Assembly: GCF_023511815.1 (NCBI RefSeq)
Contig: NZ_JAIMAV010000015.1
Coordinates: 1 to 45,766 of the forward strand
Length of the DNA stretch: 45,766 nt
Direction: 5' to 3'
From: Alicyclobacillus sp.
GTDB lineage: Bacteria; Bacillota; Bacilli; Alicyclobacillales; Alicyclobacillaceae
Made by a program: the position numbers and the translations under genes
Notes under the pieces: model-generated
Seen by the model: the letters and a program-made list of their open reading frames with translations, nothing else
Databases searched by the model: none
What the model was told of the DNA's origin: nothing
In this document: positions 168 to 43,449 of the stretch, piece after piece
Position numbering within the stretch: the first letter of the stretch is position 1
How the letters are laid out: the number at the start of each line of letters is the position of its first letter

Positions 168-4710
<4,543 letters not shown>

Positions 4711-4772
4711 TCCACCTTCCGCGGTTGTGGATCCCACGCCTTTCTCATTATAGGACATCGGCCAAAAGACGG

Positions 4773-6146
4773 TCAGGCCTCCTCCGCCGCCGTGTCCGGG
4801 TCGGGCGGCAGAAGGCGCGCCGCCTCCTCCGCCGGCAGTTCCTGCACCCGCTCGAGGCGGCGTTCAATCGTCCGCGTGCGGCGCGTCGCCGTTTCAATGG
4901 AACGGCTGGCCTCCTGCAGCTTCTTCTGCGTCTTTTGCAAGAGCTCCCCGAAGGTCCCGAACTGCGCCTTGATGGCGCCGAGCAGCTCCCACACCTCGCT
5001 CGAGCGCTTCTGAATCGCCAGCGTCCGAAAGCCCATCTGCAGGCTGTTGAGCAGGGCCGTCAGCGTGGTGGGCCCGGCGAGAACCACCCGGTACTCGCGT
5101 TGAATCGCCTCCGCCAGCCCCGATTGGCGCAGGACCTCCGCGAACAGCCCCTCCGTCGGCAGGTACATGAGCGCGAAGTCGGTGGTGTGGGGCGGTTGGA
5201 TGTACTTGTCGTGGATGGACCGCGCCTCCGCCCGGATGCGCTGGTGCAACGCCCGCGCCGCCTCCTGAAAGGCGGCCGCGTCCCCCGCGTCCTGAGCGTC
5301 GAGCATCCGCTGGTAGTCTTCCATCGGGAACTTGCAGTCGATGGGCAGGTACACCGCGTCGGCCCCTCCCTGTCCGGGCAGACGGATGGCGAACTCCACC
5401 CGCTCGTTCGATCCCGCCCGCACCGCGACATTCTTCTCGTACTGCTCGGGCGACAGCAGCTGCGCAAGCAGCATCTCGAGCTGCACCTCGCCGAATGTCC
5501 CCCGCGCCTTGACGTTGGTCAGCACCCGCTTGAGATCCCCCACGTTCGCCGCCAGCGACTGCATCTCGCCAAGCCCTCTGTGGACCGCTTCGAGCCGATC
5601 GCTGACCTGCCGGAACGACGCCGCCAGCCGCTGCTCGAGCGTGGCGTGCAGCTTCTCGTCGACGGTTTGGCGCATGCGCTCCATCTGCCGGCTGTTGTCC
5701 TCCTGGAGTTGGCGCAGCCGCGCGTCCACCACCTGACGCACCGCCTCGAGCCGCTGCTCGTTCGTATCGGCAAGATGCTTGAGTTGCCCCGCGAATGCCT
5801 CCAGCAACACCCGCTGTTGCTCTCCCATGCGATGGAGCTGATAAGCGGTCGCCTCGTTGACCTGGCTTGTCATCCGGCCGAAGCCCGCCTGCGTCGCCTC
5901 GGACAGGCGCTGGATTTGCCCGGCCAGCTCCTCGCGCAACAGCTTGGCCTGCGCGGCGTACTCCTGGCGCACCCCCGCGACGGCCCGCTCGATGGCGCCG
6001 GCCACCTCCGAACGCAGAAGATCCAGTTCCCGCCGCATCTCGCCATCCAGCGCATGCCTTCCCGCCGGTTTCCCGGCCATCCGCACCCACAACGCCACCT
6101 GCAGGACAATGACCACCCCGAGCAACGCCCACTGCACCGTGTTCAT
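4773..6146 (-). CDS. rmuC: RmuC family DNA recombination protein
   Basis: RmuC proteins limit recombination at inverted repeats. They carry a predicted PD-(D/E)XK-like nuclease domain, but the biochemistry is poorly defined. The 457-residue product has an N-terminal transmembrane helix (TVQWALLGVVIVLQVALWV), then a long coiled coil to about residue 200. The RmuC domain follows, with the segments GTFGEVQLEMLL, LPIDCKFPMEDY and FALMYLPTEGLFAEV. The ATG at 6146 follows GGGGAGGGG; the frame stays open further upstream only because it runs through the tRNA gene. pcrA starts about 60 bases downstream on the same strand, so co-transcription with pcrA-ligA is possible. Confidence 0.93.
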   Translation of the reverse strand: MNTVQWALLGVVIVLQVALWVRMAGKPAGRHALDGEMRRELDLLRSEVAGAIERAVAGVRQEYAAQAKLLREELAGQIQRLSEATQAGFGRMTSQVNEATAYQLHRMGEQQRVLLEAFAGQLKHLADTNEQRLEAVRQVVDARLRQLQEDNSRQMERMRQTVDEKLHATLEQRLAASFRQVSDRLEAVHRGLGEMQSLAANVGDLKRVLTNVKARGTFGEVQLEMLLAQLLSPEQYEKNVAVRAGSNERVEFAIRLPGQGGADAVYLPIDCKFPMEDYQRMLDAQDAGDAAAFQEAARALHQRIRAEARSIHDKYIQPPHTTDFALMYLPTEGLFAEVLRQSGLAEAIQREYRVVLAGPTTLTALLNSLQMGFRTLAIQKRSSEVWELLGAIKAQFGTFGELLQKTQKKLQEASRSIETATRRTRTIERRLERVQELPAEEAARLLPPDPDTAAEEA

Positions 6147-6177
6147 CCATTCCCCTCCCCGTCTGTGCCCAGGACAA

Positions 6178-6213
6178 GACGAAAACACCCGCCTCCCGGA
6201 GGAAGCGGGTGTT
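6178..6213 (-). terminator. Intrinsic terminator after tRNA-Pro
   Basis: On the minus strand a 9-bp stem (AACACCCGC / GCGGGTGTT) with a 12-base loop begins eight bases after the tRNA 3' end. It is followed by TTTCGTCTTG. The U tract is short but the position fits termination of the tRNA transcript. Some read-through into rmuC is possible. Confidence 0.75.
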
Positions 6214-6220
6214 CTCCCAT

Positions 6221-6296
6221 TGGTCGGAATGACAGGACTCGAACCTGCGGCCTCACGGTCCCGAACCGTGCGCTCTACCACCTGAGCTACATTCCG
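6221..6296 (-). tRNA. tRNA-Pro (anticodon CGG)
   Basis: The minus strand folds into a full cloverleaf of 76 bases. The acceptor stem is CGGAATG/CATTCCG, and the D arm contains AGGTGGTAG. The anticodon stem is CACGG/CCGTG with loop TTCGGGA, giving anticodon CGG (reads CCG, proline). The T arm has TTCGAGT and the 3' end is an encoded ACCA. CCG is a common proline codon in this GC-rich genome. Confidence 0.96.
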
Positions 6297-6318
6297 TCGG
6301 CTGCGCCGGACAGAAGCT

Positions 6319-6347
6319 AATATACCATCGGTGGCTGCGAGCGTCAA
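6319..6347 (-). promoter_or_regulatory. Sigma-A promoter of tRNA-Pro
   Basis: The minus strand has TTGACG, a 17-base spacer and TATATT, ending about 22 bases before the tRNA 5' end. Box sequences, spacing and position all fit a housekeeping promoter. Confidence 0.8.
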
Positions 6348-6385
6348 CCGTCTGCGGCTGGAAATCTTTCACCGGATGCCACCGG

Positions 6386-6413
6386 ACAAAAGAGCCCGCC
6401 CGAAGGGAGGCGG
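6386..6413 (-). terminator. Terminator after the SPW-repeat gene
   Basis: The minus strand carries CCGCC, an 8-base loop and GGCGG, followed by GCTCTTTTG, about 60 bases after the stop at 6474. The stem is short and the U tract has four bases, so this is a moderate candidate. Confidence 0.5.
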
Positions 6414-6473
6414 CGGACACCCGGTTCCGCACATCCGCCCGGGGCGGGCGCAAGCCTTTCAAGTCGGTAGCCG

Positions 6474-6836
6474 TCACGCGTTGGCCTTCCCACCGGTGCT
6501 GTGCCCATTGGCCCCTTCCCACATGGTCCACAGGTTGAGCACCGCGGTGACAATGCCGAGGATCACACTGGTCCACGTCTCCCCCGCGTTGCCGGAGAGG
6601 GGCAGGACAAACGGCTGCAGGATGAACCACACGCCGGTCAGGAAGGACACCCAGTTCTGCCAGGTGCGCCAGCTGGGCTCCTCCACGTAGGCGGCCCAGA
6701 CGGAGGCAATCACCTGGATGGCGCCAAAGATGACGCTCGTCCAGACGGCTCCCGCCACATCCGAGACGCCGAGCACCCAGGGCGCGATGATGAACCAGAC
6801 ACCGATAATGGCATTCAACCAGTTCCGCCACTTCAT
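6474..6836 (-). CDS. SPW repeat membrane protein
   Basis: A 120-residue integral membrane protein of unknown function with about four hydrophobic helices. It contains two copies of the SPW-type repeat: WRNWLNAIIGVWFIIAPWVL near the N terminus and WQNWVSFLTGVWFILQPFVL in the second half. Each is followed by a helix containing WTSVI(F/L)G. Such proteins are widespread and lack a defined role. I chose the ATG at 6836 because GGAGGTG precedes it at normal spacing; the longer frame to 6908 has no ribosome binding site. The gene stands alone, with a hairpin downstream and possible promoter elements upstream. Confidence 0.8.
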   Translation of the reverse strand: MKWRNWLNAIIGVWFIIAPWVLGVSDVAGAVWTSVIFGAIQVIASVWAAYVEEPSWRTWQNWVSFLTGVWFILQPFVLPLSGNAGETWTSVILGIVTAVLNLWTMWEGANGHSTGGKANA

Positions 6837-8388: not shown

Positions 8389-10917
8389 GTGAACCTCGTG
8401 CAGTCGTTGGAAAGGGCCGTCCTCCGGGATCCGGACCACCCGTGCCTGATGCACAAGACCGACGGCCGGTGGCAGGTGATGACCTACGGAACGGTCTGGG
8501 AGCACATCCAAGACTTCGCCGCGGGCATCCGGAAGTGCGGCGTCCGGCGCGGAGACCGGGTCGCGCTCCTCGCGACCAACCGGCCGGAGTGGGCCATCGC
8601 GGACTACGCCCTGCTCGCCCTGGGCGCCGTCGTCGTCCCGGTGTATCCCACGCTCCCGCGCGACCAGGTGCTGTACATCCTCGAGAACGCCGAGGTCAGC
8701 CACATCATCCTGGAGGACGCCGCGCAGTACCAGAAGGTGATGGATCCCTGGCCGGAGCGCATTCGCCTGTCCGTCGTCATGCGCCACGAGACCATGCCGC
8801 GAACCCCGAATCGGCGCTGGCTGCCGTTCTGGGACGTGGTGCGCCTGGGCCAGCCGCCGTTCACCACGGAACCGGTCAATCCGTCCGTCATCCCGGACGA
8901 GGCGTTGGCGACCATCGTCCACACCTCGGGGACCTCGGGCCATCCCAAGGGCGTCATGCTCTCCCATCGCAACATCGTCAGCAACGTCGAGGCGTGCCTG
9001 CAGATCCTGCCGGTGGATCCGAACGATGTCTCACTGTCCTACCTGCCCTTATCCCATATCTTCGAGCGGACCGTCGGCCAGTTCGCCGCCCTCTCCTCCG
9101 GAGCCACCGTCGCCTACGCCGAGTCCATCGACGCCCTGCGGCAAAACCTGACGGAAGTGCGCCCGACCATCCTGATCACCGTCCCGCGGCTCTTGGAGAA
9201 GGTGTACACCGGCATCCAGGAGCAGCTCGGCCGGCTCCCCGCGCCCGTCCGCCGGGTGTTGCGAGCGGGTCTCGATCGCGACGAAACCACGGGCCTGACC
9301 TACCGACTGGTCAATCGGCTGGTGTACGAAAAACTGCGCCAGGGGCTCGGTGGAAGGCTGCGCGTCATTGTCTCCGGCGGTGCCGCGCTCAGCCCCGAGA
9401 TCGCAAGGTTCTACACCCGTGCCGGCATCCCGGTGCACGAGGGGTACGGGATGACCGAGGCCGCACCGGTGATCGCCGCCAACCCGGCGGATGCCAACCG
9501 GCCCGGCACGGTCGGCGTGCCCATCCCGGGAGTGGAGATCCGCATTGCCGAGGACGGAGAGCTGCTCGTGCGCGGCCCGAACGTCATGCAGGGCTACTAC
9601 CGGGCGCCCGAGGAGACGGCGAAGGCGCTGGAGGACGGTTGGCTGCACACCGGAGACATCGCCGTGCTGGAGGACGGGTACCTGCGGATTGTCGACCGCA
9701 AGAAGAACATCCTGGTGCTCGCAACCGGCAAGAATGTCGCCCCGGCACCCGTGGAGACCGCCATTGCCCTCAGCCCGTACGTCTCCAGCGCCGTGCTCAT
9801 CGGGGATGGCCGCAAGTACGTCACCTGCCTGGTCTCCCCGGACCTCGGCGCCCTCACCCAGCTCGCGCAGCGGCTCCACCTGACCGGAGGCCCGGCGGAT
9901 TGGATCGCGACCCCGCAGGTGCGCGCTCTGTTTGCACAGGAGATCCGGCGCGCGGTGGAACCGTTTGCGTCGTTTGAACAGCCCAAACGCGCCCTGCTGT
10001 TGCCGGAGGAGTTCTCCGTGGAGGGAGGGCAGCTCACCCCGACGCTCAAGGTGCGCAACCGCATCATCATGCAGCGGTACGGAGACGCCATCGAGCGGAT
10101 GTACGAAGGCACGGAGGGGATTCCCATCTTCGATCCCGACGTCCCCCGCGCCCCCGCCCCACCCCCGGGCACGGGACACCGCAGTGGACCGGGGGTCCCC
10201 GCCGCCGCGGTGGCGGGCTCCGCGCCGCCAGACATCCGTTTCGCGGAAGACACCGCACCGGGGTCCAACACCGCTGGCCCTGGGACCAACACCCCCGTGC
10301 CCGGGACCAACACCGTCGGACCCGCCAACTCCGTCGCGGAGGCGGCGGACCATCCCGTCGCGGAGGCGCCTGCCGCGAGCGCGCGTCGCCGGCGGCGATG
10401 GGCGGTGGCCGGCGGGATCGCCCTGTGCGGTGTCGCGGCGGCCGCGGCGGTGCAGGCGGCGGTCCACGGTCCGGCGGCCCTGTGGAACATCCCGGGCTTG
10501 GTGCGGCAGATGGCCGGAACCAACGACGGCATCAACGGAGCCAACCGGGACATTCTCAACCACCTGCGGGACATCGACCAGCTGGCCGGGCGGACCGGGG
10601 ACATGGTCGGGTCCCTGCAGCAGGTCAACACCAGCGTCGCACGGGATCAACAGACGCTCGCCCGCCTGAACGACCTGAGCCGTCAGGAGGTCGACTTGAG
10701 CCAGCAGTTCCTCACCCTCGCCCGCGCGATGCAATCGGACATGAACCGCATCGGAGCCGCATCAAACACCCAGGCCCGGAATCTGGGCACCATGCGGACC
10801 ACCTCCGGCCAGGTGGTGTCGGCCGCCGCGCAGCTCACGGACGTCAATCGCACCATGGCCGGTAAACTGGACGAAGCCGACCGGCGGACACACGCCGTCA
10901 ACCAGTCGATTCCCTGA
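8389..10917 (+). CDS. Long-chain acyl-CoA synthetase fused to a transmembrane coiled-coil tail
   Basis: The first ~580 of 842 residues are a complete ANL-superfamily long-chain fatty acid-CoA ligase. The ATP/AMP-binding loop TSGTSGHPKG is near residue 180, followed by YLPLSHIFER, GYGMTEA near 351, and GWLHTGDIAVLEDGYLRIVD. LTPTLKVRN near 552 carries the expected catalytic Lys. The family normally ends about here. This protein continues with a Pro/Thr/Asn-rich linker with PGTNT repeats (about 585-665), an Arg cluster, and one transmembrane helix (AVAGGIALCGVAAAAAVQAA, about 672-692). A ~145-residue helical, Gln/Asn-rich, Cys-free tail ends it. By the positive-inside rule the synthetase is cytosolic and the tail outside. 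The tail resembles the next four gene products. The GTG at 8389 follows GGGAGG at good spacing; the ATG at 8230 lies inside the previous gene. Free fatty acid chain length cannot be read from sequence. Confidence 0.9.
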   Translation: MNLVQSLERAVLRDPDHPCLMHKTDGRWQVMTYGTVWEHIQDFAAGIRKCGVRRGDRVALLATNRPEWAIADYALLALGAVVVPVYPTLPRDQVLYILENAEVSHIILEDAAQYQKVMDPWPERIRLSVVMRHETMPRTPNRRWLPFWDVVRLGQPPFTTEPVNPSVIPDEALATIVHTSGTSGHPKGVMLSHRNIVSNVEACLQILPVDPNDVSLSYLPLSHIFERTVGQFAALSSGATVAYAESIDALRQNLTEVRPTILITVPRLLEKVYTGIQEQLGRLPAPVRRVLRAGLDRDETTGLTYRLVNRLVYEKLRQGLGGRLRVIVSGGAALSPEIARFYTRAGIPVHEGYGMTEAAPVIAANPADANRPGTVGVPIPGVEIRIAEDGELLVRGPNVMQGYYRAPEETAKALEDGWLHTGDIAVLEDGYLRIVDRKKNILVLATGKNVAPAPVETAIALSPYVSSAVLIGDGRKYVTCLVSPDLGALTQLAQRLHLTGGPADWIATPQVRALFAQEIRRAVEPFASFEQPKRALLLPEEFSVEGGQLTPTLKVRNRIIMQRYGDAIERMYEGTEGIPIFDPDVPRAPAPPPGTGHRSGPGVPAAAVAGSAPPDIRFAEDTAPGSNTAGPGTNTPVPGTNTVGPANSVAEAADHPVAEAPAASARRRRRWAVAGGIALCGVAAAAAVQAAVHGPAALWNIPGLVRQMAGTNDGINGANRDILNHLRDIDQLAGRTGDMVGSLQQVNTSVARDQQTLARLNDLSRQEVDLSQQFLTLARAMQSDMNRIGAASNTQARNLGTMRTTSGQVVSAAAQLTDVNRTMAGKLDEADRRTHAVNQSIP

Positions 10918-10935
10918 GGACGGGAGGGATACACC

Positions 10936-11448
10936 ATGCCCATCCTGCGCGTGTTGGGATACGTCGCGAGCGCCGGGCTCGCCGCTCTGCTGGCTCAACA
11001 GGTGGTCACGACCTACTACGTGGCCAGGATTGACGCCGGGCTGCGCACGAGCCTCAACGCCACTCGTCAGCTGGGAGATATTCAGGCGGCGGTGATTGAG
11101 AAAAACGGCGCGCTGAAGCAGATGCAATCCACGTCGGACGCCGCCCTGGCCCAGCTGAGGGCGACGCTCCAGGTGACCCAGGCCATCGATCAAAACATCA
11201 CCCAAATCGACCAGCTCAACGCGTCGACCCGGCAGATCAATGATCAACTGGCGGCGGCCGGACGCACCGGCCAGGCGACGCTCGGCGACATCGCCGGCAC
11301 GCTGGCTCAGTTGAAGGACACCCTCGGCCAACTGGGGCCGCACGTGGGGGACCTGCAGCAGATGGTCCGCGCGGACGCGGGCAACCTGGCCGACATGCGG
11401 GAGCAGGTTCATCAAATGGATCAGAAGATTCCGGGCCTTCTTCGGTGA
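10936..11448 (+). CDS. Membrane-anchored coiled-coil protein, second gene of the synthetase operon
   Basis: A 170-residue protein of no family I recognise. It has a short N-terminal cytoplasmic start, one transmembrane helix (about 5-28, with AGLAALLAQQVVTTYYV) and then an almost continuous helical region rich in Gln, Leu, Asp and Asn with heptad-like spacing. Residues QIDQLNASTRQINDQL align with DLDRLNAATDQVRQHL of the fifth gene. The end VHQMDQKIPGLLR aligns with LHQLNQRFALLR of the fifth gene and with THAVNQSIP of the synthetase tail. The gene starts 18 bases after the synthetase stop with a GGGAGG site. I infer an outer-face structural partner of the synthetase tail. Confidence 0.8.
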   Translation: MPILRVLGYVASAGLAALLAQQVVTTYYVARIDAGLRTSLNATRQLGDIQAAVIEKNGALKQMQSTSDAALAQLRATLQVTQAIDQNITQIDQLNASTRQINDQLAAAGRTGQATLGDIAGTLAQLKDTLGQLGPHVGDLQQMVRADAGNLADMREQVHQMDQKIPGLLR

Positions 11449-11460
11449 GGAGGCGAATCC

Positions 11461-12000
11461 ATGAAGGCAGAATTTGTGCGCGCGGGACTGCGGCGCGCGT
11501 TTTCGACGCCGAAGGTGCTGGTGGTGGTGTGCCTGGCGGGGCTCGGGATCAACGGGCTACTTCAGGTTGGGCTGCAGCACGACATGGCCGCGAGATCGGC
11601 CGAACTCCAGCAGCAGGTGGCCCGGGCGCAGGGGCAGAGCGGCCAGATGAAATCGAGCGTCGCCGGCCTGCCGCATCTTTCCGCGACGACGGCCGAGATG
11701 CAGAACGTGCTCGGGCAGATTGAGGCGACGACGGCCCACATGGACCAGGGGCTGATGGTGCTCGCGGACACCGTCGCCGGGATTGAGAAGGACGCCGCGG
11801 CGCTGACGGGATCGACCCAGGCGTCGGACGCCCAGATTCGCCAGGCGGCCGCCACGGCACAGGCCCTGCTGGCGCAGGTGCAGGACCTGCAGCGGATGAA
11901 CGCGGATGTGGTGGCGCAACTGCGGTCCATGGCATCGGATCAGGTGCAGATCAACCGCGACCTGGAGGACATGAACGCGAAGACGGCGTTTCTCCCGTGA
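11461..12000 (+). CDS. Membrane-anchored coiled-coil protein, third gene of the synthetase operon
   Basis: A 179-residue protein with a basic N terminus (MKAEFVRAGLRR), one transmembrane helix (KVLVVVCLAGLGINGLLQVG, about 18-37) and a helical tail of ~140 residues rich in Gln, Ala and Met. The C-terminal INRDLEDMNAKTAFLP has the same hydrophobic-x-x-(N/D)-x-(K/R) pattern as the ends of its neighbours. No catalytic motif or cysteine is present in the tail. The gene begins 12 bases after the previous stop, with GAGGAGG as ribosome binding site. Function is unknown; organisation and topology tie it to the synthetase. Confidence 0.8.
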   Translation: MKAEFVRAGLRRAFSTPKVLVVVCLAGLGINGLLQVGLQHDMAARSAELQQQVARAQGQSGQMKSSVAGLPHLSATTAEMQNVLGQIEATTAHMDQGLMVLADTVAGIEKDAAALTGSTQASDAQIRQAAATAQALLAQVQDLQRMNADVVAQLRSMASDQVQINRDLEDMNAKTAFLP

Positions 12001-12023
12001 GCGTTCAAGCGTGAGGAGGTGAA

Positions 12024-12899
12024 GTGTGGATGCAGCGGATCGTGATGACCAAACCGGTGGCCGTCGGCGCGGTGGCTGGACTTCTTGCCGTCGGCGCCGT
12101 CACGTGGGCGACGACCACCGCCGCTCCCGTTCGCGGTGTGGACGCCTTGGCTCCGCTCAAGCAGGTGGCGACCCTGGCGCAATCCACGCAACAGGTGTAC
12201 CAGAGCACGCGCCACCTGTCCGACGCCGTGTCTTCGGTGGCGACCGAGTTGCAACAGCTGGATGTTCAGGCAAATGTGCTGCAACAACAGCTGGAGACGG
12301 GCCGCGCCCTGGAGGACGCGTTGACCGAACAGGCCACCCTGACCGCCCAGGGGGTCTCGGCCATGCGGGACATCCTGGCGCGGCAGAAACAAACCCAGGT
12401 GCTGACCCATCAGGTGGCGGCGGCGGCCGAGGCCGTCGCGCCTTCGGTGGCGCAGAGCGCCGCCGGCATGACGGCGCTGTTGGGTGCGCTGAACGATGCG
12501 AACCGGTCCTCCGCCTCCCTGAACACCCGCCTGGACGCCCTGCTTCAGGAGCTGGCGGCGGCGCAGCAGTCGTTCCGACTGCTGGGGCAGCTGCAACACC
12601 TGTTGCCGGGTGGATCCGGGTTGTCCTCGGTGCTCGGCGGCCTGACGGGCGCGACGCAGCGCCTGGGCGGGCTGACCTCCGGCCTCGGCGGCGCCGGCTC
12701 GGGGCTTGGGAACCTGGCGGGCCTCGGCGGGGCGGGCACCTCGTCCAACACCGGGCAGACCGCGCCAGGGCAGGGCGCGACGGCGGGATCGACCGGGGAT
12801 CCCGGCGGCGATTCGAGCGCGACGGGCGGTCCGTCGACGGGCGGAACGGCGGGAGGCCTCGGGGATCCGCTCGGATCGGTCCTGGGCATGCTTCCGTGA
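12024..12899 (+). CDS. Exported or anchored coiled-coil protein with Gly-rich tail, fourth gene of the synthetase operon
   Basis: The product has about 290 residues and no family I recognise. An N-terminal hydrophobic segment (PVAVGAVAGLLAVGAVTWA) acts as signal or anchor; a cleavage site after ATTTAA is possible. A helical region follows to about residue 190, with LQQLDVQANVLQQQLETG typical. The last ~90 residues are Gly/Ser/Thr/Ala-rich low complexity (GGLTSGLGGAGSGLGNLAG). It ends GSVLGMLP. Two starts are possible after GAGGAGG: GTG at 12024 or ATG at 12030; the latter has the looser spacing. The gene sits 23 bases after the previous stop. It is the longest of the small proteins and the only one with a disordered tail. 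Confidence 0.75.
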   Translation: MWMQRIVMTKPVAVGAVAGLLAVGAVTWATTTAAPVRGVDALAPLKQVATLAQSTQQVYQSTRHLSDAVSSVATELQQLDVQANVLQQQLETGRALEDALTEQATLTAQGVSAMRDILARQKQTQVLTHQVAAAAEAVAPSVAQSAAGMTALLGALNDANRSSASLNTRLDALLQELAAAQQSFRLLGQLQHLLPGGSGLSSVLGGLTGATQRLGGLTSGLGGAGSGLGNLAGLGGAGTSSNTGQTAPGQGATAGSTGDPGGDSSATGGPSTGGTAGGLGDPLGSVLGMLP

Positions 12900-12983
12900 C
12901 CCGGCGGCATGCCTCCGTGACCGGCGACTCCCCGCAGAGCACGGCGATACGGAACGGAACCATGCAGGAGAGGAGGAGACGGA

Positions 12984-13511
12984 ATGCGCGCCATCTGGAT
13001 CAACGGATTGCTGTGGGCCATCGGCCTTCTGGGCGCCGGGAGCTTCGCGTACAGCCTCACGCAGCAATCGAATTTACAAACCAGGATGAATCAGACAATG
13101 GTGGAGATTGGAACCTCCGTTCTTGCAACCTCCGGACTGGTTCAGGAGACGGGAGACGCCCTGGCGCCGCTCGGCGAGCTGACGCAGACCCTGCAGCACA
13201 TGCAGGCGTCCCAGTCGCGCACGGTGACGCACCTGAAGGCGATGAACGGAAGGCTCGAGGCCATCGGGCAGACGGAACAACAGATCATCCGCGACCTGGA
13301 CCGCCTCAATGCGGCGACCGACCAGGTGCGTCAACACCTGACGCAGATGGCCCCGGTCACGGCCGGATTGCGGGACGCCACCGGCGCCTCCGCCGGTCAG
13401 GCGCGCCAGGAAGCGGGGTCGGTGGCCGCGATGGATCAGATGACACAACAGACGGTGGACGGGTTGCACCAGCTCAACCAACGGTTCGCCCTGCTGCGCG
13501 CCCTCCCGTAG
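12984..13511 (+). CDS. Membrane-anchored coiled-coil protein, fifth gene of the synthetase operon
   Basis: A 175-residue protein with one N-terminal transmembrane helix (about 5-24, WINGLLWAIGLLGAGSFAYS) followed by ~150 helical residues rich in Gln, Thr and Leu. It shares sequence with the second gene product: DLDRLNAATDQVRQHL against QIDQLNASTRQINDQL, and the C-terminal LHQLNQRFALLR against VHQMDQKIPGLLR. GAGGAGGAGACGG lies directly before the ATG. The 84 bases between the previous stop and this start contain no terminator, so it is probably the last gene of the operon. The next gene encodes a CoA-binding protein 160 bases on. Confidence 0.8.
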   Translation: MRAIWINGLLWAIGLLGAGSFAYSLTQQSNLQTRMNQTMVEIGTSVLATSGLVQETGDALAPLGELTQTLQHMQASQSRTVTHLKAMNGRLEAIGQTEQQIIRDLDRLNAATDQVRQHLTQMAPVTAGLRDATGASAGQARQEAGSVAAMDQMTQQTVDGLHQLNQRFALLRALP

Positions 13512-19619: not shown

Positions 19620-20897
19620 TCAGGCCAGATTCAGGTGAACCGTGTTCAGTCCAAAGCTGTCGCGCAGCGCTTGAGCGGCGAGCGTTTCTCCCCACGGCAC
19701 CCACACGCGGCGGCCGCCCGTGACCACCCACTTCCCGTGGGCCCGGACCACCGCCTGCCATTCGGGCGTGAGTTCCCAGATGTAAGACCCCGCGATGGCC
19801 ATGTCGCGCAGCTGGCTCCACGATTTCCACTGGCCGTGATCCCACGCGCCACCGGCCCGGTACACCGCGGTCCAGTAGTCGTTGAGCCAGGTGAAGTGCT
19901 GCCAGTGCAGGCGCTGATAGATGGAATGGCCAAACTGCAACGCCGCGAGGCCCACGGCCGCATCGCGGGTGGAGTAGCCGCTGACGCCGGAGTACGCCCC
20001 GCCGGTGTTGTCGTACCGGAACCCGCCCGTCCCGGCGTCGTAAAAGGACAGCAGGGCCGACTTCGGCGTGCCGCCCGGTTGGGTCCACGTCTGCGGGTCG
20101 ATGCCGAGGCTGACCAAGGCGTCCACCACCACGCCAGTGGAGTCCGCGTTGCTGGTCTTGCCCGCGGTGCCAAATCCCCCGTCCTCCGCCTGCTGGGTCT
20201 TCAGAAAGGCGATCGCCTTGGCGATGGCCGGATGATCCGCCCGGTACCCGAGCAGCGACAGGGCCACCAGGGCGGCCGCCGTGTCATCCGCGTCGCTGTC
20301 GGCGTACTGCGACGAGAAGCCGAACCCGCCGTCCTCGTTCTGGTGCGCCAACAGCCACTGTGCCGCGGCCGCCCGGTTGTAGTCGACGCCCCCCGCGTCC
20401 TCGAGGGCGATGATCGCCCAGGCCTGGGCGTTGATGAGATCCGTCCCCGTACCATCCAAGTTGTCGGCGAACTTCCCGGCGTCCGGGCCGGAGGACAGCT
20501 GCGCATGCGCGAGTTTGGCGACCAGGTCTCCGGCCGGCGTCTGGTGCGGGTCCTCCCCGGCCGCCAGCGCTCCGAGGATGAAGCGGGCCGCGTCCGTCGA
20601 GGTGGACAGATTGGAAATCTCCCTGTCCAACGCCGGGTTCGCCTGCCGCAGGCCGGTCGCGGCGAAGTGGACGACGGCTGCCCAGTCGGGCATCTTGGTC
20701 CCCTGCTGCTGAACCATCCAGCGGGCGGCGGCCGCGAGGGCCGCCGCGGCCTGCGGCGTCTGCGCGGCGGCGGCCGCGGTGGAAGTAGTCCCAGCCGGTG
20801 CCCCGGCCGTCGTCGGATTCGTGGCGGCCAGCGCGGCCGGTGCGGCGGAGGACAACGAGATCATCGCGGCGAGGGCCGCGCGGGTGTGGTGTTTCAT
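19620..20897 (-). CDS. Exported prenyltransferase/squalene-cyclase-like alpha-repeat protein (intrinsic-factor alpha-domain type)
   Basis: A 425-residue protein with a Sec signal (AALAAMISLSSAAPAALA, probable cleavage near residue 25) and an Ala-rich spacer. Its core has several alpha/alpha hairpin repeats with the motif EDGGFG: LLAHQNEDGGFGFSSQ and FLKTQQAEDGGFGTAGKTS, then GTGGFRYDNTGGAYSGVSGY. This is the terpenoid-cyclase/prenyltransferase-like barrel also used by the alpha domain of animal intrinsic factor and transcobalamin. It lacks the Asp-rich cyclase motif DXDD, so it is unlikely to be an enzyme. The ATG overlaps the S component stop (ATGA). Placed last in a riboswitch-controlled ECF operon, I infer cobalamin binding outside the cell. 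Confidence 0.82.
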   Translation of the reverse strand: MKHHTRAALAAMISLSSAAPAALAATNPTTAGAPAGTTSTAAAAAQTPQAAAALAAAARWMVQQQGTKMPDWAAVVHFAATGLRQANPALDREISNLSTSTDAARFILGALAAGEDPHQTPAGDLVAKLAHAQLSSGPDAGKFADNLDGTGTDLINAQAWAIIALEDAGGVDYNRAAAAQWLLAHQNEDGGFGFSSQYADSDADDTAAALVALSLLGYRADHPAIAKAIAFLKTQQAEDGGFGTAGKTSNADSTGVVVDALVSLGIDPQTWTQPGGTPKSALLSFYDAGTGGFRYDNTGGAYSGVSGYSTRDAAVGLAALQFGHSIYQRLHWQHFTWLNDYWTAVYRAGGAWDHGQWKSWSQLRDMAIAGSYIWELTPEWQAVVRAHGKWVVTGGRRVWVPWGETLAAQALRDSFGLNTVHLNLA

Positions 20898-21601
20898 CGG
20901 GATCGCTCCTCTCCCAGGTTGAATTGTGCATCCGCCGGCATCAGCCGGCGGCGAAACCTGTCCAGAACCGACAGGGTCGGCCGCCCCGCCGCCGCGGCGA
21001 ACAGGGCGTTGGCCAGCGCGTGCAGGGTGTCAAACCAGACGCTCAGCCCGCAGAGGGCGAGGTACGCGGGCCAGGACGGATGCCCGGTGCCAAGCAGTGA
21101 CCAGGTGTTGAGGATCCACCCGAACAGGTACCCCCAGAGCACGCCGAACGGCATCAGCGCCCGCCAGGTGAGCCGCGGCCAGAACCGGCGGAGCCAGCCC
21201 GCCGAGGCCCCGGCCAGGCCCCACGCGGCCATCTGCCACGGGGTCCATCCGCCCTCGCCGAGAAACAGGTTCGATCCGACGGCCGTGAACGCCCCCACGG
21301 CCGCCCCGGTCACCGGGCCCAGCGAAAACCCGCTGGCCAGCACCAGAAACGTCGCCGGTTGCACCCCCGGGATCCCCTGCATGGCGGCCCGGCCGACGGA
21401 GGCCAGCGCGGAGAGCGTCGCGACCAGGGCGATGTACTTCGGGTCGGCCGCGTAGCGTTCGTACAGCTCCAACACCGACCACGCGCCGAGCACCAGCGCC
21501 GCCGTGGCGGTGGCATACCAGGGCCATCCCCACCACGCTCCGGCGATCACGACCCCCAGGGCCGCGACCCCGGCCACCGCGGCCAGCGCCCGTCCGCTCA
21601 C
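20894..21601 (-). CDS. ECF transporter S component, probably cobalamin-specific
   Basis: The substrate-specific membrane subunit of an energy-coupling-factor transporter, 235 residues with about six helices. Diagnostic parts are VGRAAMQGIPGVQPATFLVL, LGPVTGAAVGAFTAVGSNLF and GEGGWTPWQMAAWGLAG, shared by a family of ECF S components found with B12 riboswitches. The start is a GTG at 21601 overlapping the ATPase stop by four bases (GTGA); its stop overlaps the next ATG. The vitamin is inferred from the riboswitch upstream, not from sequence. Confidence 0.85.
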   Translation of the reverse strand: MSGRALAAVAGVAALGVVIAGAWWGWPWYATATAALVLGAWSVLELYERYAADPKYIALVATLSALASVGRAAMQGIPGVQPATFLVLASGFSLGPVTGAAVGAFTAVGSNLFLGEGGWTPWQMAAWGLAGASAGWLRRFWPRLTWRALMPFGVLWGYLFGWILNTWSLLGTGHPSWPAYLALCGLSVWFDTLHALANALFAAAAGRPTLSVLDRFRRRLMPADAQFNLGEERSR

Positions 21602-23355
21602 CGCGCCCACCCCGCCGCCACGGCGTCCGCGAGACACAGGACGCCCGGGGCGGCGCCGCGCAGCGCCCGGGCAACGACCGGCGCAAACCAGAGGGCTTGT
21701 CCAAACACCTCCGCCGGAGTGCCCGCCAGGGCCACCCGGCCGCGGTCGAGAAAGAGGATGGCGTCAGCGAATTCGGCGACGAAATCCAGGTCGTGTGTCG
21801 CCACCGCCGCCGTCCGGCCGCTCGCGCGCAGCCAGCGGCCGAGGGACTGTTTTTGCAGCGGATCGAGCCCGCGCGTCGGTTCGTCCAGCAAAAACAGATC
21901 CGGCGCTGCGGCCGAGAGGGCCGCCAGGGCGACCCGCGTGCGCTCTCCGCCCGACAGGTCGCGCGGGTGCCGTCCGAGCCACTCCGTGATGCCAAACGCC
22001 TCCGCCGCCTGTGCGACGGCCTGCTCCACGCGGCGCCGGTCAACCCCCTGCAAACGCAGCGCCAGTCCCAGTTCCTCGGCGACCGTCTCCTGGCTCAACA
22101 GATCGTTCGGGTTCTGCGGCAGAAACGCGATGCGGACCGCGCCCGGTCCCGCCGGGACACCGGGCTCGCCCGGACCGACCGGACCGACGTGCCCCCGGGC
22201 CCCGGTGACCCGCCCGCCGGACAGCGGCACCGCGCCCGCCAGGGCGCGCAGCAGCGTCGACTTGCCCGCACCGTTTGGCCCGATGATGGCGGTGACCCGC
22301 CCCCGGACCAGCGCCGCCGTGCACTCGTCAAGGGCTCGGACCCCACCCGAATACACCACCGTCGCCCGGTCGAGACCGACCAGGATATCGGGTGTGGCGG
22401 GGCCTCGCGCCAAAGGGCCCGACCGGACCGACGGCGCGGTCGCCGGCGCGATGAGACGATTCGGCGGGGCCCCCGACTGCCCGCCGGGCCCATCGCTCCC
22501 CGGCGGTGGCGTACCTGCGGCCGGACCGATGCGTTGCCGCACCTCACGCACGGTCAGCGCGGGGGCCATGTCCTCCTCCGGATGGTCCGGTGCACCGGGC
22601 CGCGACCGCAGACGCGCGAGCACCGGCGCTTGCGCAGGACTGGTCCGGCACAGCCAGGCCGCCACCTCCCGAGGCGATCCGGTGGCGGCCACGCGGCCCG
22701 CCTCCATCACCGCCACCTGGTCCACCCAGCCGTACAGCCGGTCAATCCGGTGTTCACTCAGAATCAGCGTGATGGAAAAATCGTCCCGCAGGCGCCGCAG
22801 CACATCCCACAGTTCCTCAGCGGCCACCGGATCGATCTGCGATGCCGGCTCATCCAACAACAGCACCGCCGGCTGGTGGACCAGCGCGGCCGCCAACGCC
22901 ACCCGCTGGCGCAGACCGCCCGACAGGGACGCCACCGCGTCCTCGGCCCGGTCCGACAGGCCGACCATGGCCAGCGCCTCGGCCACTCGCCACTCCATCT
23001 CGCGCGGCGGAACGCCGAGGTTCTCCAGGGTGAAGGCCACCTCGCGGGCGACGGTCGAGTGGACCTGCTGAGCCTCCGGATCCTGGTACACCACGCCGAT
23101 CCGCCGCACGCGCTCGGCGGGCGTCATCGCCTGCGGGGAGCGGCCGCCGATTTCCACCCGGCCCGTGATGGTCCCGCCCGAAAACGCGGGGCACGCCCCC
23201 GAAAGGCATCCCAACAGCGTCGATTTGCCCGATCCGGTCTCTCCGTGCAACAGCAGGGCGGAACCGGGCGGCACCTTCAGGGACACCCCGTTCAGGGCCG
23301 GCACGACCGCCCCCGGGTAGATGAACGTCAGGTCCTCCACAACCACATCAAGCAA
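21598..23355 (-). CDS. Fused double ECF transporter ATPase (EcfA1-EcfA2)
   Basis: One polypeptide of about 585 residues carries both ABC ATPase domains of the ECF module. Domain 1 has Walker A HGETGSGKS, Q-loop VVYQDPEAQ, signature SLSGGLRQR and Walker B AVLLLDEPASQ. Domain 2 has Walker A GPNGAGKS, Q-loop FLPQNPND, signature DLSGGERTR and Walker B LFLLDEPTRG. A ~95-residue Gly/Pro/Ala-rich linker separates them. Domain 2 has a Gly/Pro/Val insertion (GPVGPGEPGVPAGPG) before its Q-loop. I chose the TTG at 23355 because GGGAGG precedes it; it overlaps the ecfT stop. A GTG at 23346 is an alternative. The protein powers uptake by the membrane subunits EcfT and S. Confidence 0.9.
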   Translation of the reverse strand: MLDVVVEDLTFIYPGAVVPALNGVSLKVPPGSALLLHGETGSGKSTLLGCLSGACPAFSGGTITGRVEIGGRSPQAMTPAERVRRIGVVYQDPEAQQVHSTVAREVAFTLENLGVPPREMEWRVAEALAMVGLSDRAEDAVASLSGGLRQRVALAAALVHQPAVLLLDEPASQIDPVAAEELWDVLRRLRDDFSITLILSEHRIDRLYGWVDQVAVMEAGRVAATGSPREVAAWLCRTSPAQAPVLARLRSRPGAPDHPEEDMAPALTVREVRQRIGPAAGTPPPGSDGPGGQSGAPPNRLIAPATAPSVRSGPLARGPATPDILVGLDRATVVYSGGVRALDECTAALVRGRVTAIIGPNGAGKSTLLRALAGAVPLSGGRVTGARGHVGPVGPGEPGVPAGPGAVRIAFLPQNPNDLLSQETVAEELGLALRLQGVDRRRVEQAVAQAAEAFGITEWLGRHPRDLSGGERTRVALAALSAAAPDLFLLDEPTRGLDPLQKQSLGRWLRASGRTAAVATHDLDFVAEFADAILFLDRGRVALAGTPAEVFGQALWFAPVVARALRGAAPGVLCLADAVAAGWAR

Positions 23356-24190
23356 CGCGCCGCCCTCCCATCCACGCACCTGCGACCACAGGGATGGCAG
23401 CCGCCAGCCCCTGTTCCCAGCCGCTCGCCCGCCCCAGCCCCGACCAGACCGCCAGGGCCAAGGCCAGGGCGCAACCCGCCGCAACCCCGCTGTCCTGGCG
23501 GCGCCACCTCGGCGGACGATACTGCGTGCGGCCAGGTCCTCCGTATCCCCTGGTGTACATCGACTCGGCGAGCGTCCAGGCTCGCTCCAGGCCGTTCATC
23601 AACAGCGTCTGGTACACGACCGCCAGGTGCCGGACCCGCATCCGGATGCCGCCTGTCGGGTTGCCTGCGCGCAGTCGCAACAACGCCTCCACCCGTTCCC
23701 GCTCGCGCAACAGCTGCGGCACGAATCCGATGACCATCTGCACGGTCAGTCCCGCGCGCGCGAACCGCCGGCCGAGCCAGTGCGTGATGTCATCCGGGCG
23801 CACCACCTGGCCGAACCAGGAGAGAAAAACCAGCAGATTCCACAACCGCAGCCCCCGGACGAGCGCGGCCTCCAGGCTCTCGGGGCCGAGGACGAGGGTT
23901 CCGAGGCCGGGCAGATGGGGCCCCCGCCACCAGACGGTCTCCGAAACCGTCCCGAACAGGCTGCCGATGGCCACGTACAGGAGGAGAAACGGAAGCGCCC
24001 ACCCGGCCGCCGCGCGCCCCGGGCGCGAATTTCCTCCTCCGTCGCGCCACTGCAAGCCCACCGCCCCGGCGCACATCAGGGCCAGCACGGGCCAGGACGA
24101 GAGGCTTTCGACCACCACCACCCAGGTGAGGGCGCACAGGCCGATCGCCAGCGGGTGCGGGGGCTGGCGCCGCGCGGATGGCCCTGCCAT
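23348..24190 (-). CDS. ECF transporter transmembrane protein EcfT
   Basis: The energy-coupling membrane subunit, 280 residues with about five or six transmembrane helices. Near the end are the coupling-helix features RERERVEALLRLR and ESMYTRGYGG, the latter the Ala/Thr-Arg-Gly motif that docks on the ATPases. The ATG at 24190 overlaps the DUF4430 stop (TGATG) and its stop overlaps the ATPase start, so translation is tightly coupled. The longer frame to 24349 lies within the upstream gene and is not used. Confidence 0.88.
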   Translation of the reverse strand: MAGPSARRQPPHPLAIGLCALTWVVVVESLSSWPVLALMCAGAVGLQWRDGGGNSRPGRAAAGWALPFLLLYVAIGSLFGTVSETVWWRGPHLPGLGTLVLGPESLEAALVRGLRLWNLLVFLSWFGQVVRPDDITHWLGRRFARAGLTVQMVIGFVPQLLRERERVEALLRLRAGNPTGGIRMRVRHLAVVYQTLLMNGLERAWTLAESMYTRGYGGPGRTQYRPPRWRRQDSGVAAGCALALALAVWSGLGRASGWEQGLAAAIPVVAGAWMGGRRVA

Positions 24191-25107
24191 CAGCCGTACA
24201 CCTGCGCCGGGTCCCAGCGGTGATAATCCCAGGTGTCCACGTCCCCCGATCGCGGCTGGATGTCCGCCGCCCCCACCTTGGCCTGCTGCCCATTCACATA
24301 CAGAAACCAGTCCACCGGCTGGCGCTGGCCGGCCGGGACACCCGTCCATTGGGACCGAATCCCGTTGATGGAGACCATGAAGTTGTCCCCATAAGCCGTG
24401 ACGATGTCAAAGTACTGATGCATGTAATCCATGAGCGACTCCCCCGGCACCACCGGCACCGTCTTCTTCGCGATGAGATGCGCACCGTTGTCCTCGCTGA
24501 CGACGATGGTGAACTGGCCCGCCGGTTGCGGGGACGCCGGCGGGGTCCCCTGTGCCGTCTGCCGGCCCTCGCCGGTCGTCCCGCCGGAACCGCCACGCCC
24601 GCCGGAACCTGCGCTGCCTCCGGTCCCCGTGACGGCATCCCGTGCGCCTGCGCCGTCCGCCCCGGCGCCCCCCGCACCGGTGCCCGTTCCGGCATTCGGG
24701 CCGGCGGCGTGTGCCCCTGCGCCCGCCCCGGCGGTGGCAGCCAAGCCAGCGGCGATGGACGCCTTCGCAGTGCCGCCCGCCGCTTTTCCGGCCGCCGCGC
24801 TCGGATCCGCCTTCGCGGCATGGGCCGTCCCATCCCCCGCCCCCTGGCCTGATGCGGCAAAACCGGCGGCGTCCCCTCCTGAAGCGGGCGCCGCCAGCCC
24901 CCCGCCGGTGCGATTGCCCGCGGAGGTGCGCTCCGGATCCCCCATGGAAACGAGGTTCCCAACCCCTCCGCCGGTCGAATGAATTGCGTCAGCCTGTTGC
25001 GCTTCACCACCGGGCCGGTGGGCCGGGTGCGTGGCGTGCAACGCACCGTACAGCACGGCGACGCCGGCCAAACCGATGAGCCCCGTCCGCAACACCCAGC
25101 GGCGCAT
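24190..25107 (-). CDS. DUF4430 exported protein (intrinsic-factor beta-domain type)
   Basis: A 305-residue protein with an N-terminal signal anchor (MRRWVLRTGLIGLAGVAVLY), a ~165-residue Gly/Ala/Thr-rich linker, and a C-terminal DUF4430 domain (about 199-305). The domain shows GESLMDYMHQYFDI, FMVSINGIRSQW and VDWFLYVNGQQAKVGAADI. DUF4430 is the fold of the C-terminal beta domain of transcobalamin and intrinsic factor. The ATG at 25107 follows AAGGAG with 8-base spacing; the GTG at 25116 overlaps the site. It is the first gene after the cobalamin riboswitch and is coupled to ecfT. I infer an anchored outer B12-binding subunit on a flexible tether. Confidence 0.88.
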   Translation of the reverse strand: MRRWVLRTGLIGLAGVAVLYGALHATHPAHRPGGEAQQADAIHSTGGGVGNLVSMGDPERTSAGNRTGGGLAAPASGGDAAGFAASGQGAGDGTAHAAKADPSAAAGKAAGGTAKASIAAGLAATAGAGAGAHAAGPNAGTGTGAGGAGADGAGARDAVTGTGGSAGSGGRGGSGGTTGEGRQTAQGTPPASPQPAGQFTIVVSEDNGAHLIAKKTVPVVPGESLMDYMHQYFDIVTAYGDNFMVSINGIRSQWTGVPAGQRQPVDWFLYVNGQQAKVGAADIQPRSGDVDTWDYHRWDPAQVYG

Positions 25108-25235
25108 CGCGTCCACTCCTTGGGATTCCGACTTGCATGCGATTCAACAGGAGATGCCCCGTGACGCGTCGCGATCCATCGTGGCGCCCACCTCATGTAA
25201 AGGGCGGCCGCAGTCTTCCAAACCCACCACGGGAT

Positions 25236-36715: not shown

Positions 36716-36769
36716 TCCACCAGCTCCCGCCTCAGGTTTCCCTCGGTCCAACACGCGCTTGGTCCATCG

Positions 36770-41072: not shown

Positions 41073-42367
41073 CCCTGCTGATACACAAACTCTGTTCGAG
41101 TGTAAGTCTGGACAAAATCAAGTCGTGCTCCCACCGTAACCCGAACCTGCGCGCTGGGAAATGCATTGGCCCACCAGGCATCGCCACGCCAAGCCCGGGG
41201 TTGGTGGCGGTACAGTTCCCGCCCAAATCCGAAAACGTCCGTTTTCTCCGTCTGCGCCCGGTGGATGGCGCTGGTGATCATCTCCGCGGACTGTGATTCC
41301 ACCGCCATTTGCAACGTCTTCAATCTCTCGGCATCCTGGTTCACGGCGCACACTCCGCCTTCCACACTGCCGCGCAACCGAACCTGAAGATCGATGACAG
41401 GTGGGGCGCTCCCCCCATCTGCCGTCCGGACGCGGACGCGGCAACGAGCGGATTTTATATTCACGACAAAACCGTCATTGGGACCGTTCGGGCAACGATA
41501 CACGAATACGGTGTGAGGCAGCTGGTTTTGCACCAGGGCCCATCCGACAAATTCCCGGCCGGACATCTCCCCTGCCAACCGATCTCCTGAAAAAGTGACA
41601 ATTCCCTTTATTCGCGGCGCGGACAGGTTGTGTTCCACCCCGGCGATGTCTAAGGCGAACGGCTCCACCCCTGGTGTCGACAGCCGCTGATGGAAACCAC
41701 CGATGGTCGCGTCGTACGGTCGGTTCAGCCAGACTTTGTTCCTGAACAGGTTGGTCAGGTACATGGCAGGAATCACGTCCAATTTGGGTGATTGTCGAAG
41801 AAACTCGACGGCGGGGCGATCCGATATGAAGACCCACAGATTTCGACTGACCACACGGGCCTGAATCAATGGGTTCATGATGTCGGCCACGCCTCGGTTC
41901 GCCACATGCCGACTGATCACAACCGCCTGTAAATTATTGTAAAATAATCGCCGGTTCAACGACAATTGAATTTTGTACAATGCATCCATTACATTTTCTC
42001 CCTGTTCGGATACCGTGACCACCCGCTTCGCTCCGTTCCCATCCCCGGATCCACCGGAACGGTCCCCGGCCAATGCCTGGGGATTGGCCAGTTGCAGGGT
42101 AACCATGACATCAGGCGCTTTCGGAGTTTCGTCCTGTTTTTCCGTAGTCAACGCAGTTTCGCCCGGCGCCGACTCCGATTCTCCGTTCATGGAACTGGGG
42201 GATGCTGAGAAACCGGGATCGATGCCAATCATCAGAACGATGGCACGCTGTTGCAGTTCGATGCCATCCCAACACCCAGGTATGAAGAGCCCCACAGCAG
42301 CACACAGAAGCAGTGCCAACGTGCGGTTTGGGTTACGCGTACCCAGCGGTGTCAGCCCCCTTCCCAT
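41069..42367 (-). CDS. gerC: Spore germination lipoprotein GerC (GerKC family)
   Basis: The C subunit of a Ger(x) germinant receptor, anchored by lipid on the spore inner membrane. The 432-residue protein has a lipobox (GLFIPGC, Cys32) followed by the family hallmark WDGIELQQRAIVLMIGID. Other typical parts are LNRRLFYNNLQAVVISRHVA and LWVFISDRPAVEFLR. A Ser/Glu/Thr-rich insertion (about residues 55-85) after the first strand is unusual. The ATG overlaps the end of gerB by 16 bases. The stop overlaps the start of the FMN protein gene. Confidence 0.94.
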   Translation of the reverse strand: MGRGLTPLGTRNPNRTLALLLCAAVGLFIPGCWDGIELQQRAIVLMIGIDPGFSASPSSMNGESESAPGETALTTEKQDETPKAPDVMVTLQLANPQALAGDRSGGSGDGNGAKRVVTVSEQGENVMDALYKIQLSLNRRLFYNNLQAVVISRHVANRGVADIMNPLIQARVVSRNLWVFISDRPAVEFLRQSPKLDVIPAMYLTNLFRNKVWLNRPYDATIGGFHQRLSTPGVEPFALDIAGVEHNLSAPRIKGIVTFSGDRLAGEMSGREFVGWALVQNQLPHTVFVYRCPNGPNDGFVVNIKSARCRVRVRTADGGSAPPVIDLQVRLRGSVEGGVCAVNQDAERLKTLQMAVESQSAEMITSAIHRAQTEKTDVFGFGRELYRHQPRAWRGDAWWANAFPSAQVRVTVGARLDFVQTYTRTEFVYQQG

Positions 42368-43431: not shown

Positions 43432-43449
43432 AGACCAGGACCAACCTCT

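Follow-up and report, generated by a model that had tools for sequence, protein, structure and literature searches.

The window, a stretch of 45,766 nucleotides from Alicyclobacillus sp. (contig NZ_JAIMAV010000015.1), carries five genes, here termed A to E, on the forward strand between positions 8389 and 13511. The first-pass annotation had described a synthetase fused to a transmembrane (TM) helix and a helical tail, followed by four rod genes, and its coordinates and gene calls were found to be right. Gene A (8389-10917, 842 residues) starts with GTG with GGGAGGT ahead of it, and the gaps A-B, B-C, C-D, and D-E are 18, 12, 23, and 84 bases long.

Residues 1-580 of A (8389-10128) make up a long-chain acyl-CoA synthetase, in which Pfam assigned AMP-binding to residues 7-404 (5.2e-88; 295.9 bits compared to a cut-off of 29.9) and AMP-binding_C_3 to residues 440-574 (1.7e-9). 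Residues T179, S180, G181, T182, G184, K187, and G188 of the P-loop TSGTxGxPKG were invariant in 25 aligned rows, as was K554, which we take to be the catalytic C-terminal lysine. The best 50 of 1826 Foldseek matches to A were adenylate-forming enzymes. None of the best 25 NCBIfam models reached its cut-off. Judged by its sequence, the enzyme part is a regular FadD-type long-chain acyl-CoA synthetase with intact motifs. It is followed by a linker rich in Pro, Gly, and Thr with an Arg-rich stretch at its end (10129-10386), a predicted TM helix (residues 667-693; 10387-10467), and an outer helical tail of 146 residues (10477-10914), which ends at a Pro that is invariant in an alignment of 33 rows. 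In the full-length model of A the linker was disordered over about 85 residues (pLDDT about 30); its length varied among homologs and was shorter in some. Hydrophobicity and charge (positive-inside rule) predict an N-in/C-out orientation for the TM helix, which was modelled with low confidence, as was the tail with a break at 735-745.

Genes B (10936-11448, 170 residues), C (11461-12000, 179 residues), D (12024-12899, 291 residues), and E (12984-13511, 175 residues) each encode a single-pass rod protein with an N-terminal hydrophobic segment, the positive charge being higher on the N side of this segment. D has a Gly/Ser/Thr-rich extension past its rod. AlphaFold2 modelled B as a single helix (residues 3-164, mean pLDDT 86) without a hairpin from an underlying alignment of two sequences only, and a Gly/Ser-rich stretch is located near residues 106-115 of B. 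No family for B-E was found in Pfam or NCBIfam, where only weak coiled-coil matches (e.g., SMC) below the cut-offs were returned. Among the papers that the literature searches listed, none was seen to describe a five-rod system, judging by their entries.

Counting the A tail as a rod, all five rods were present in 40 of the 41 mapped loci with C, and in all 40 they were found on a single strand in the order A tail, B, C, D, E; the 41st locus (L094) is decayed. The 40 loci are all from one class and include one in which the A tail and B are truncated (L021) and one in which the enzyme is cut at a contig end (L036). B and C overlap by 4 bases in 30 cassettes. The co-occurrence of five rods in a single order is far from chance, and the gene order, which the first-pass annotation had put up for checking, is conserved. 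The synthetase was fused in 19 of the 40 cassettes, encoded by a separate adjacent gene in 11, and in 10 none of the type was nearby. In Alicyclobacillaceae the enzyme and chain A are a single polypeptide, and elsewhere the enzyme gene sits next to that of chain A. Four of the 10 genomes with no synthetase nearby (G140, G225, G210, and G200) had no match at E ≤ 1e-80, and two of the other six had weak or partial matches only. Since the five rods are kept together while the synthetase may be fused, adjacent, or not nearby, the five-rod cassette is the unit and the synthetase its usual but not obligatory partner. It had initially been argued that rods occurring without the fusion in most genomes would speak against a common system; about half of the mapped loci (21 of 40) turned out to be unfused, but the tail of the synthetase was still part of the set. 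The earlier interpretation of the five tails as one system with the synthetase was supported in part: five single-pass proteins with outward tails of near-equal length are indeed encoded together, but the synthetase, in view of the counts above, is not always a member. None of the findings points to the omega-alicyclic fatty acids that the first-pass annotation had named as possible substrates.

An S-layer-homology (SLH) gene was located directly upstream in two of the 10 cassettes with no synthetase nearby (L095 and L085, where it overlaps the A tail). A TetR gene immediately precedes the cassette in L082, L089, L090, L092, L093, and L098 (six loci), and L098 has TetR, acyl-CoA dehydrogenase, SCP2, and AMP-binding genes on the same strand about 1 kb past E. 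The TetR protein of L090 had general TetR proteins as its best matches and was not called FadR, because the solved fatty-acid regulator 3whb was only a weak match (8.6e-6).

Of the 59 genomes of the order, 58 had strong matches to the A tail and to C either both present or both absent, and the exception (G056) is located at the end of a contig. The tail and B-E were jointly absent from Alicyclobacillus kakegawensis and a relative, both of which retain the enzyme and flanking genes. This joint presence and absence supports the earlier reading of the tail and the small genes as one system. The distribution was patchy, with one genome of the same genus (G002) being without the cassette and another (G001) carrying a deletion through the A tail and B; the five-rod cassette is therefore dispensable. 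No match to C was found in plasmid and phage collections at E ≤ 1e-3. In a tree of 44 rows the fused synthetases clustered with those encoded in the operon, the A. kakegawensis type being nested among them; support for this group was moderate (92/88), and its Alicyclobacillaceae/f14 part had a support of 100/100. Tail-free copies of similar identity also occur: in G262 and in G124 a second synthetase, encoded elsewhere, matches A just as closely as the one in the cassette does. These second copies were left out of the tree together with the copies of G157, G226, G229, and G138, and the cassette-linked synthetase group may therefore be non-exclusive.

The rod alignments were nearly free of insertions and deletions (39 rows for B and 40 each for C, D, and E, all including the window; D and E were also aligned in sets of 15), gaps in that of the A tail were confined to the C-terminal end, and the rod length was constant. 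All five rods had a period peak at 3.48-3.49 residues (3.49 for the A tail; 3.48 for D) with a power of 3.0-3.8 compared to a shuffled 99th percentile of 1.1-1.5. The heptad repeat ran unbroken along the entire length of each rod, with a smooth phase drift and no jump. In each of the five rods hydrophobicity was higher at positions e and g than at b, c, and f. Hydrophobic e and g positions favour more than two helices in a coiled coil, and such a bundle is therefore favoured here. Some Thr and Asn residues were conserved at core positions.

The first-pass annotation had also claimed that the tails share sequence. In profile searches C matched both E (3e-10) and B (1e-7). In hhalign the pairs A-B, A-C, B-C, and C-E gave 84-97% over nearly the full length with reversed controls at 2-37%, and the B-E pair was weaker (67% vs. 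24%); the A-E pair (42% vs. 47%), however, was not above its control, and D paired with each of the other rods gave 5-22% vs. 3-33%. A relationship between the tails of A, B, C, and E is thus supported at the profile level, whereas D as a paralog of the other rods is unproven because the range of its pairs overlaps that of the reversed controls. The local B-E match quoted earlier (B 90-105, E 104-119) is present, but it is weak evidence by itself because it is out of the full-length hhalign register. The C-terminal pattern proposed at the same time was found conserved in B, C, and E as N-x-K followed by a P near the end.

Covariation between rods was analyzed in 35 sequences. A first analysis averaged along offsets gave no consistent best offset, and the count of near-register top pairs in it prompted an in-register test. 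For the top 40 pairs in-register covariation was 61 vs. 38.7 ± 6.7 (P 0.0012), while the antiparallel control was 39 vs. 38.5. At five thresholds the P values, uncorrected for multiple use, were 0.024, 0.0012, 0.0070, 0.033, and 0.023. When the best 20 or the best 100 pairs were taken, offsets other than the in-register one scored higher. This weakly suggests one parallel in-register bundle of five rods. The Gly/Ser-rich stretch of B had raised the possibility of a rod folded as a hairpin (helix-turn-helix), but the smoothly drifting phase of the repeat, the AlphaFold2 model of B, and the lack of antiparallel covariation make this less likely.

We tentatively propose, as a reading with a real chance of being correct, that the cassette encodes a membrane-anchored stalk, most likely a heteropentamer to which each chain contributes one copy, and that this stalk gathers or channels long-chain fatty acids for use by the synthetase. 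The A tail, B, C, D, and E would each cross the membrane once and extend outward as an uninterrupted helix, about 145 residues and 21 nm long, and the five chains would wind into a single parallel in-register bundle, with D running beyond its tip as a flexible Gly/Ser tail. In the wall zone, long-chain fatty acids (or carboxylic acids like them) might then be taken up by the hydrophobic core of the bundle, or by its surface, and be guided to the membrane, where the cytoplasmic synthetase would trap them as acyl-CoA (vectorial acylation). Directly supported parts are the gene content and order, the topology signals, the equal rod length, the heptad repeat, and the sequence relationship among A, B, C, and E. 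The architecture, a membrane-anchored hetero-oligomer of about 21 nm that is probably pentameric, is moderately supported, while we infer the stoichiometry of one copy per chain as well as fatty-acid binding and uptake by the rods. The lipid context comes from the synthetase being fused or adjacent in 30 of the 40 cassettes and from the genes past E in L098; the 10 cassettes with none nearby, including the four genomes without a match, count against the proposal, as do the tail-free synthetase copies, the lack of a permease or ATPase gene within the cassette, the D and A-E profile comparisons, and the patchy distribution. A more specific version, a heteropentameric coiled-coil tube of about 21 nm whose axial core would lead free fatty acids straight to the tethered synthetase, driven by acyl-CoA trapping without a transport ATPase and with an origin separate from MCE systems, we consider rather unlikely. 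If true, it would be an import conduit through the wall zone of single-membrane, thick-walled bacteria. To our knowledge the passage of long-chain fatty acids across the thick wall zone of Gram-positive bacteria is little understood, and we know of no dedicated device like this. The conserved five-rod set, often joined to or beside a synthetase, may be an undescribed cell-surface device bringing fatty acids to the membrane. With five rod families that lack a Pfam or NCBIfam entry, have a fixed order, and are mostly tied to a synthetase, the question is directly testable, and the natural variants (fused, unfused, synthetase-less, rods absent, rods broken) are ready-made comparisons.

The same rods could instead serve as an envelope scaffold, a spacer by which the membrane is tied to the S-layer or the wall; the synthetase would then be anchored there as part of normal lipid turnover, and the bundle would carry no cargo. 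The constant rod length, the flexible extension on D, the SLH genes upstream of L085 and L095, and the four synthetase-less-cassette genomes without a similar synthetase would fit such a role, which we regard as possible if not very probable; the frequent fusion or adjacency of the synthetase argues against it, and because A. kakegawensis and its relative retain the enzyme and flanks without the rods, these are not a general part of the wall. Coiled coils frequently self-associate, and together with the modest covariation signal this leaves room for five independent homo-oligomers that merely share an operon. We find this unlikely, given that five rods with a common length and repeat occur together in one order in nearly all loci with C, and that the A tail and C are jointly present or absent.

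Long single-pass coiled coils are typical of receptors, and the rods might sense an outside signal, helix movement setting the activity of the synthetase as in chemoreceptor stalks. The TetR genes upstream of six loci would be in line with this, but no sensor or HAMP domain was found at the Pfam cut-off in B-E of the window or in the scanned divergent rods, the disordered linker between enzyme and TM helix in A of the window is ill suited to mechanical coupling, and the synthetase is often a separate chain or not nearby; little credence is given to a receptor here. A divergent MCE-type lipid importer is highly improbable. TIGR00996 matches B weakly in its helical part (E 0.0028), and the mycobacterial mce1 cluster holds six single-pass helical subunits with FadD5 (PMC9882608). 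Membership of the MCE family was nevertheless rejected, the domain being missing by Pfam from A-E of the window, from the A tail and B-E of L083, and from the A tail, B, and E of L095. No YrbE permease or ATPase was found between the rod genes of the 40 cassettes; flanks were surveyed in 30 loci, with some flanking genes scanned by Pfam.

Compared to FadD-type synthetases, with which it shares AMP-binding and AMP-binding_C_3, A adds a C-terminal linker, a membrane helix, and an outer rod, and the gene set adds four further rods. Eukaryotic FATP/ACSL proteins are also membrane-attached acyl-CoA synthetases tied to vectorial acylation, but they have an N-terminal anchor and are not known to have outer coiled-coil partners. 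The mycobacterial fatty-acid importer Mce1 (Mce1A-F) resembles the cassette in its related yet different single-pass subunits, its long helical outer stalk, and the synthetase in its cluster. It differs in having six subunits with MCE domains, kink-separated repeats, a portal, a YrbE permease, and the MceG ATPase; when MceG was pulled down in the study reported there, no peptides of FadD5 were seen (PMC9882608). In the pentameric coiled coil of COMP (COMPcc) fatty acids are bound in the axial pore (PMC3487892), which gives a precedent for the binding proposed here. COMPcc is a parallel heptad coiled coil, and a continuous heptad repeat of this kind is present in all five rods, as are Thr or Asn residues at some core positions. 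Whereas COMPcc is a secreted animal homopentamer comprising residues 27-72, the rods are of five chain types, about three times longer, and membrane-anchored. No sequence relation is claimed; the five chain types and the in-register covariation suggest that the rod bundle, too, could have five helices around an axial pore.

The five genes at 8389-13511 (+) were found where the first-pass annotation had placed them, with matching coordinates. Protein A begins with an acyl-CoA synthetase part of the AMP-binding family (Pfam, 5.2e-88), the motifs of which are intact. In the model, a disordered linker follows, then a helix (667-693) that covers a hydrophobic segment and, last, the outer tail, which is helical. 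Proteins B, C, D and E (170, 179, 291 and 175 residues) each carry an N-terminal hydrophobic segment, with family medians of 1.87-2.15 for the best 19-residue Kyte-Doolittle mean. In B-E the positive charge is higher before this segment than after it, and all five tails should therefore be located outside. No Pfam or NCBIfam family was found above its cut-off for B-E of the window, nor for the divergent members of the five tail types (here termed rods) that were scanned.

Other gene groups were noted elsewhere in the window. At 19620-25116 (-), genes for CbiQ, a DUF4430 protein, a protein with two stretches of ABC ATPase and a prenyltransferase-toroid protein that looks secreted are close together; the group resembles a transcobalamin-like extracellular binding protein combined with an ECF transporter. 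The gene at 34997-36754 (-) encodes an ABC-class ATPase (PF09818) that also carries its N-terminal domain and, at the C terminus, a domain like that of MRB1590. Judged by eye, three genes at 41069-44928 (-) could encode the GerA-, GerB- and GerC-type proteins of a spore-germination receptor.

When the window's genome was searched together with 40 relatives and the neighborhoods were mapped, close relatives of A proved to have the same genes alongside. We mapped 46 loci, 41 with C and five without (L027, L028, L037, L038, and L039). All five rods were present in 40 of the 41, including loci with A-tail and B truncated (L021), the enzyme cut by a contig end (L036) or C lacking its usual end (L098). 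The remaining locus, L094 of genome G107 (4265-6685), has decayed to fragments of the enzyme, the tail, B and C, and D and E gave no match. The gene order Atail-B-C-D-E on one strand was conserved in 40/40 five-rod loci (cassettes), and B and C overlap by four bases in 30 of them.

The annotation had centered the operon on the synthetase. Association with this enzyme was indeed common, but fusion is only one form of it, and the core unit is the five-rod set. The tail was fused to the synthetase in 19 cassettes, while in 11 the synthetase was a separate gene that either overlapped the tail gene, by as many as 56 bases, or preceded it by up to 27 bases. The other 10 had no synthetase of A's type within about 3.5 kb; at E<=1e-80, six of these genomes gave a match elsewhere, in two cases weak or partial, and four gave none. 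In a 44-row tree, which leaves out second, tail-free synthetases (for example in G262 and G124), fused and operon synthetases grouped at 92/88 with the tail-free Alicyclobacillus kakegawensis type among them, and the Alicyclobacillaceae and f14 enzymes grouped at 100/100.

The rods are gained or lost together and are dispensable. A. kakegawensis (L027) and another genome of the genus (L028) lack B-E and have a tail-free enzyme of 603-606 residues, with flanks as in the window (Pfam: Coat_F and DUF2512-like before the enzyme, CoA-binding and DUF420 after). Strong matches of A-tail and C were concordant in 58/59 genomes of the order, the sole discordant genome (G056) having its A-tail at a contig end. 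Within the window's genus, a deletion in G001 (L021, 7660-7720) has removed the sequence between a point in the last third of A's tail and a point within B, so that both are truncated but the synthetase is whole, and G002 had no strong match to C (search model A2).

The system was found to be spread but patchy, and was seen in one class only. Model A2 matched C in 18/41 Alicyclobacillaceae and 19/59 genomes of the order (both E<=1e-58), and in 34/398 genomes drawn from the class (E<=5e-19). At 0.001, 76/398 passed in the class sample, where the additional matches were E paralogs or were weak, partial coiled-coil hits (2.5e-10 or worse); 40/398 passed in the phylum sample, none better than 2e-8 except the window's own genome. 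Five further searches, centered on other carriers, used the wider model A6 (E<=1e-15) and gave matches in 15/42, 6/14, the same 6/14 again, 1/39, and 1/15.

Rod alignments of 39-40 rows, which were roughly 15-65% identical to the proteins of the window, were nearly indel-free apart from truncated rows, the exceptions being a rare insertion column near the A-tail membrane end and, in D, a short gap affecting a few rows. All five rods had a hydrophobic period of 3.48-3.49 residues, with power far above shuffles and a smooth phase drift, concentrated in the first half, of some 50-85 degrees. Single helices without a break would show this pattern; at about 145 residues and 0.15 nm per residue, each would be near 21 nm long. 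AlphaFold2 predicted B as one helix (3-164, mean pLDDT 86, two-sequence alignment), and A's tail as helical with low confidence and a break at 735-745.

The proposed relatedness of the tails held in part. Profile comparisons exceeded reversed controls for C-E (96.8% vs. 8.5%), B-C (94.3% vs. 36.8%), A-B (89.7% vs. 1.6%), A-C (83.9% vs. 17.1%) and B-E (66.5% vs. 23.6%), but gave no clear excess for A-E (41.7% vs. 47.0%) or the four pairs with D (5-22% vs. 3-33%).

After partial removal of overall relatedness, covariation between the rods was enriched at in-register offsets; at 35 sequences, this is no more than suggestive of one shared bundle. The in-register band held 29 pairs vs. 19.4 expected (P 0.024), 61 vs. 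38.7 (P 0.0012), 82 vs. 57.5 (P 0.0070), 117 vs. 96.2 (P 0.033), and 224 vs. 192.3 (P 0.023) when the top 20, 40, 60, 100, and 200 pairs of each protein pair were counted, and the enrichment was strongest where one partner was the A tail (P 0.0002-0.008). Reversed (antiparallel) registers were not enriched (39 vs. 38.5). Of the four thresholds profiled, two (40 and 200 pairs) had their best center in register and two (20 and 100) had it elsewhere, and simple averages along the offsets peaked at no consistent position. The simplest reading of the stoichiometry would be a pentamer containing each chain once.

The enzyme part of A is ordinary. The five-rod cassette has no Pfam or NCBIfam family, and no description of it was found in the literature searched, subscription journals being mostly outside its reach. 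We rate the system as categorically new, with a putative function.

The genomic context points to lipids, with a synthetase fused or adjacent in 30/40 cassettes. About 1 kb beyond E in L098, genes for TetR, acyl-CoA dehydrogenase, SCP2, and AMP-binding proteins follow on the same strand after a small opposite ORF, and among upstream genes picked by eye for Pfam scans, TetR genes were directly upstream of the cassette in six loci. SLH-domain genes directly upstream in L085 (7723-9219) and L095 (3708-5030), both without a nearby synthetase, count against a lipid role and would suit rods serving as an envelope scaffold, which we consider rather unlikely. That the rods form independent homo-oligomers seems improbable, and that they act as a receptor marginally more so.

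Capture of fatty acids by the rods and delivery to the synthetase is favored over these three alternatives, if tentatively, by the lipid context together with two known systems. The rods would capture fatty acids outside and hand them to the synthetase. In the pentameric coiled coil of COMP, fatty acids occupy a pore along the axis, the key residues of which include Thr, Asn, and Gln (PMC3487892), which makes rods as a fatty-acid conduit or carrier physically plausible. For the mycobacterial importer Mce1, the structure paper proposes that fatty acids pass through the tunnel of a long helical outer stalk (PMC9882608).
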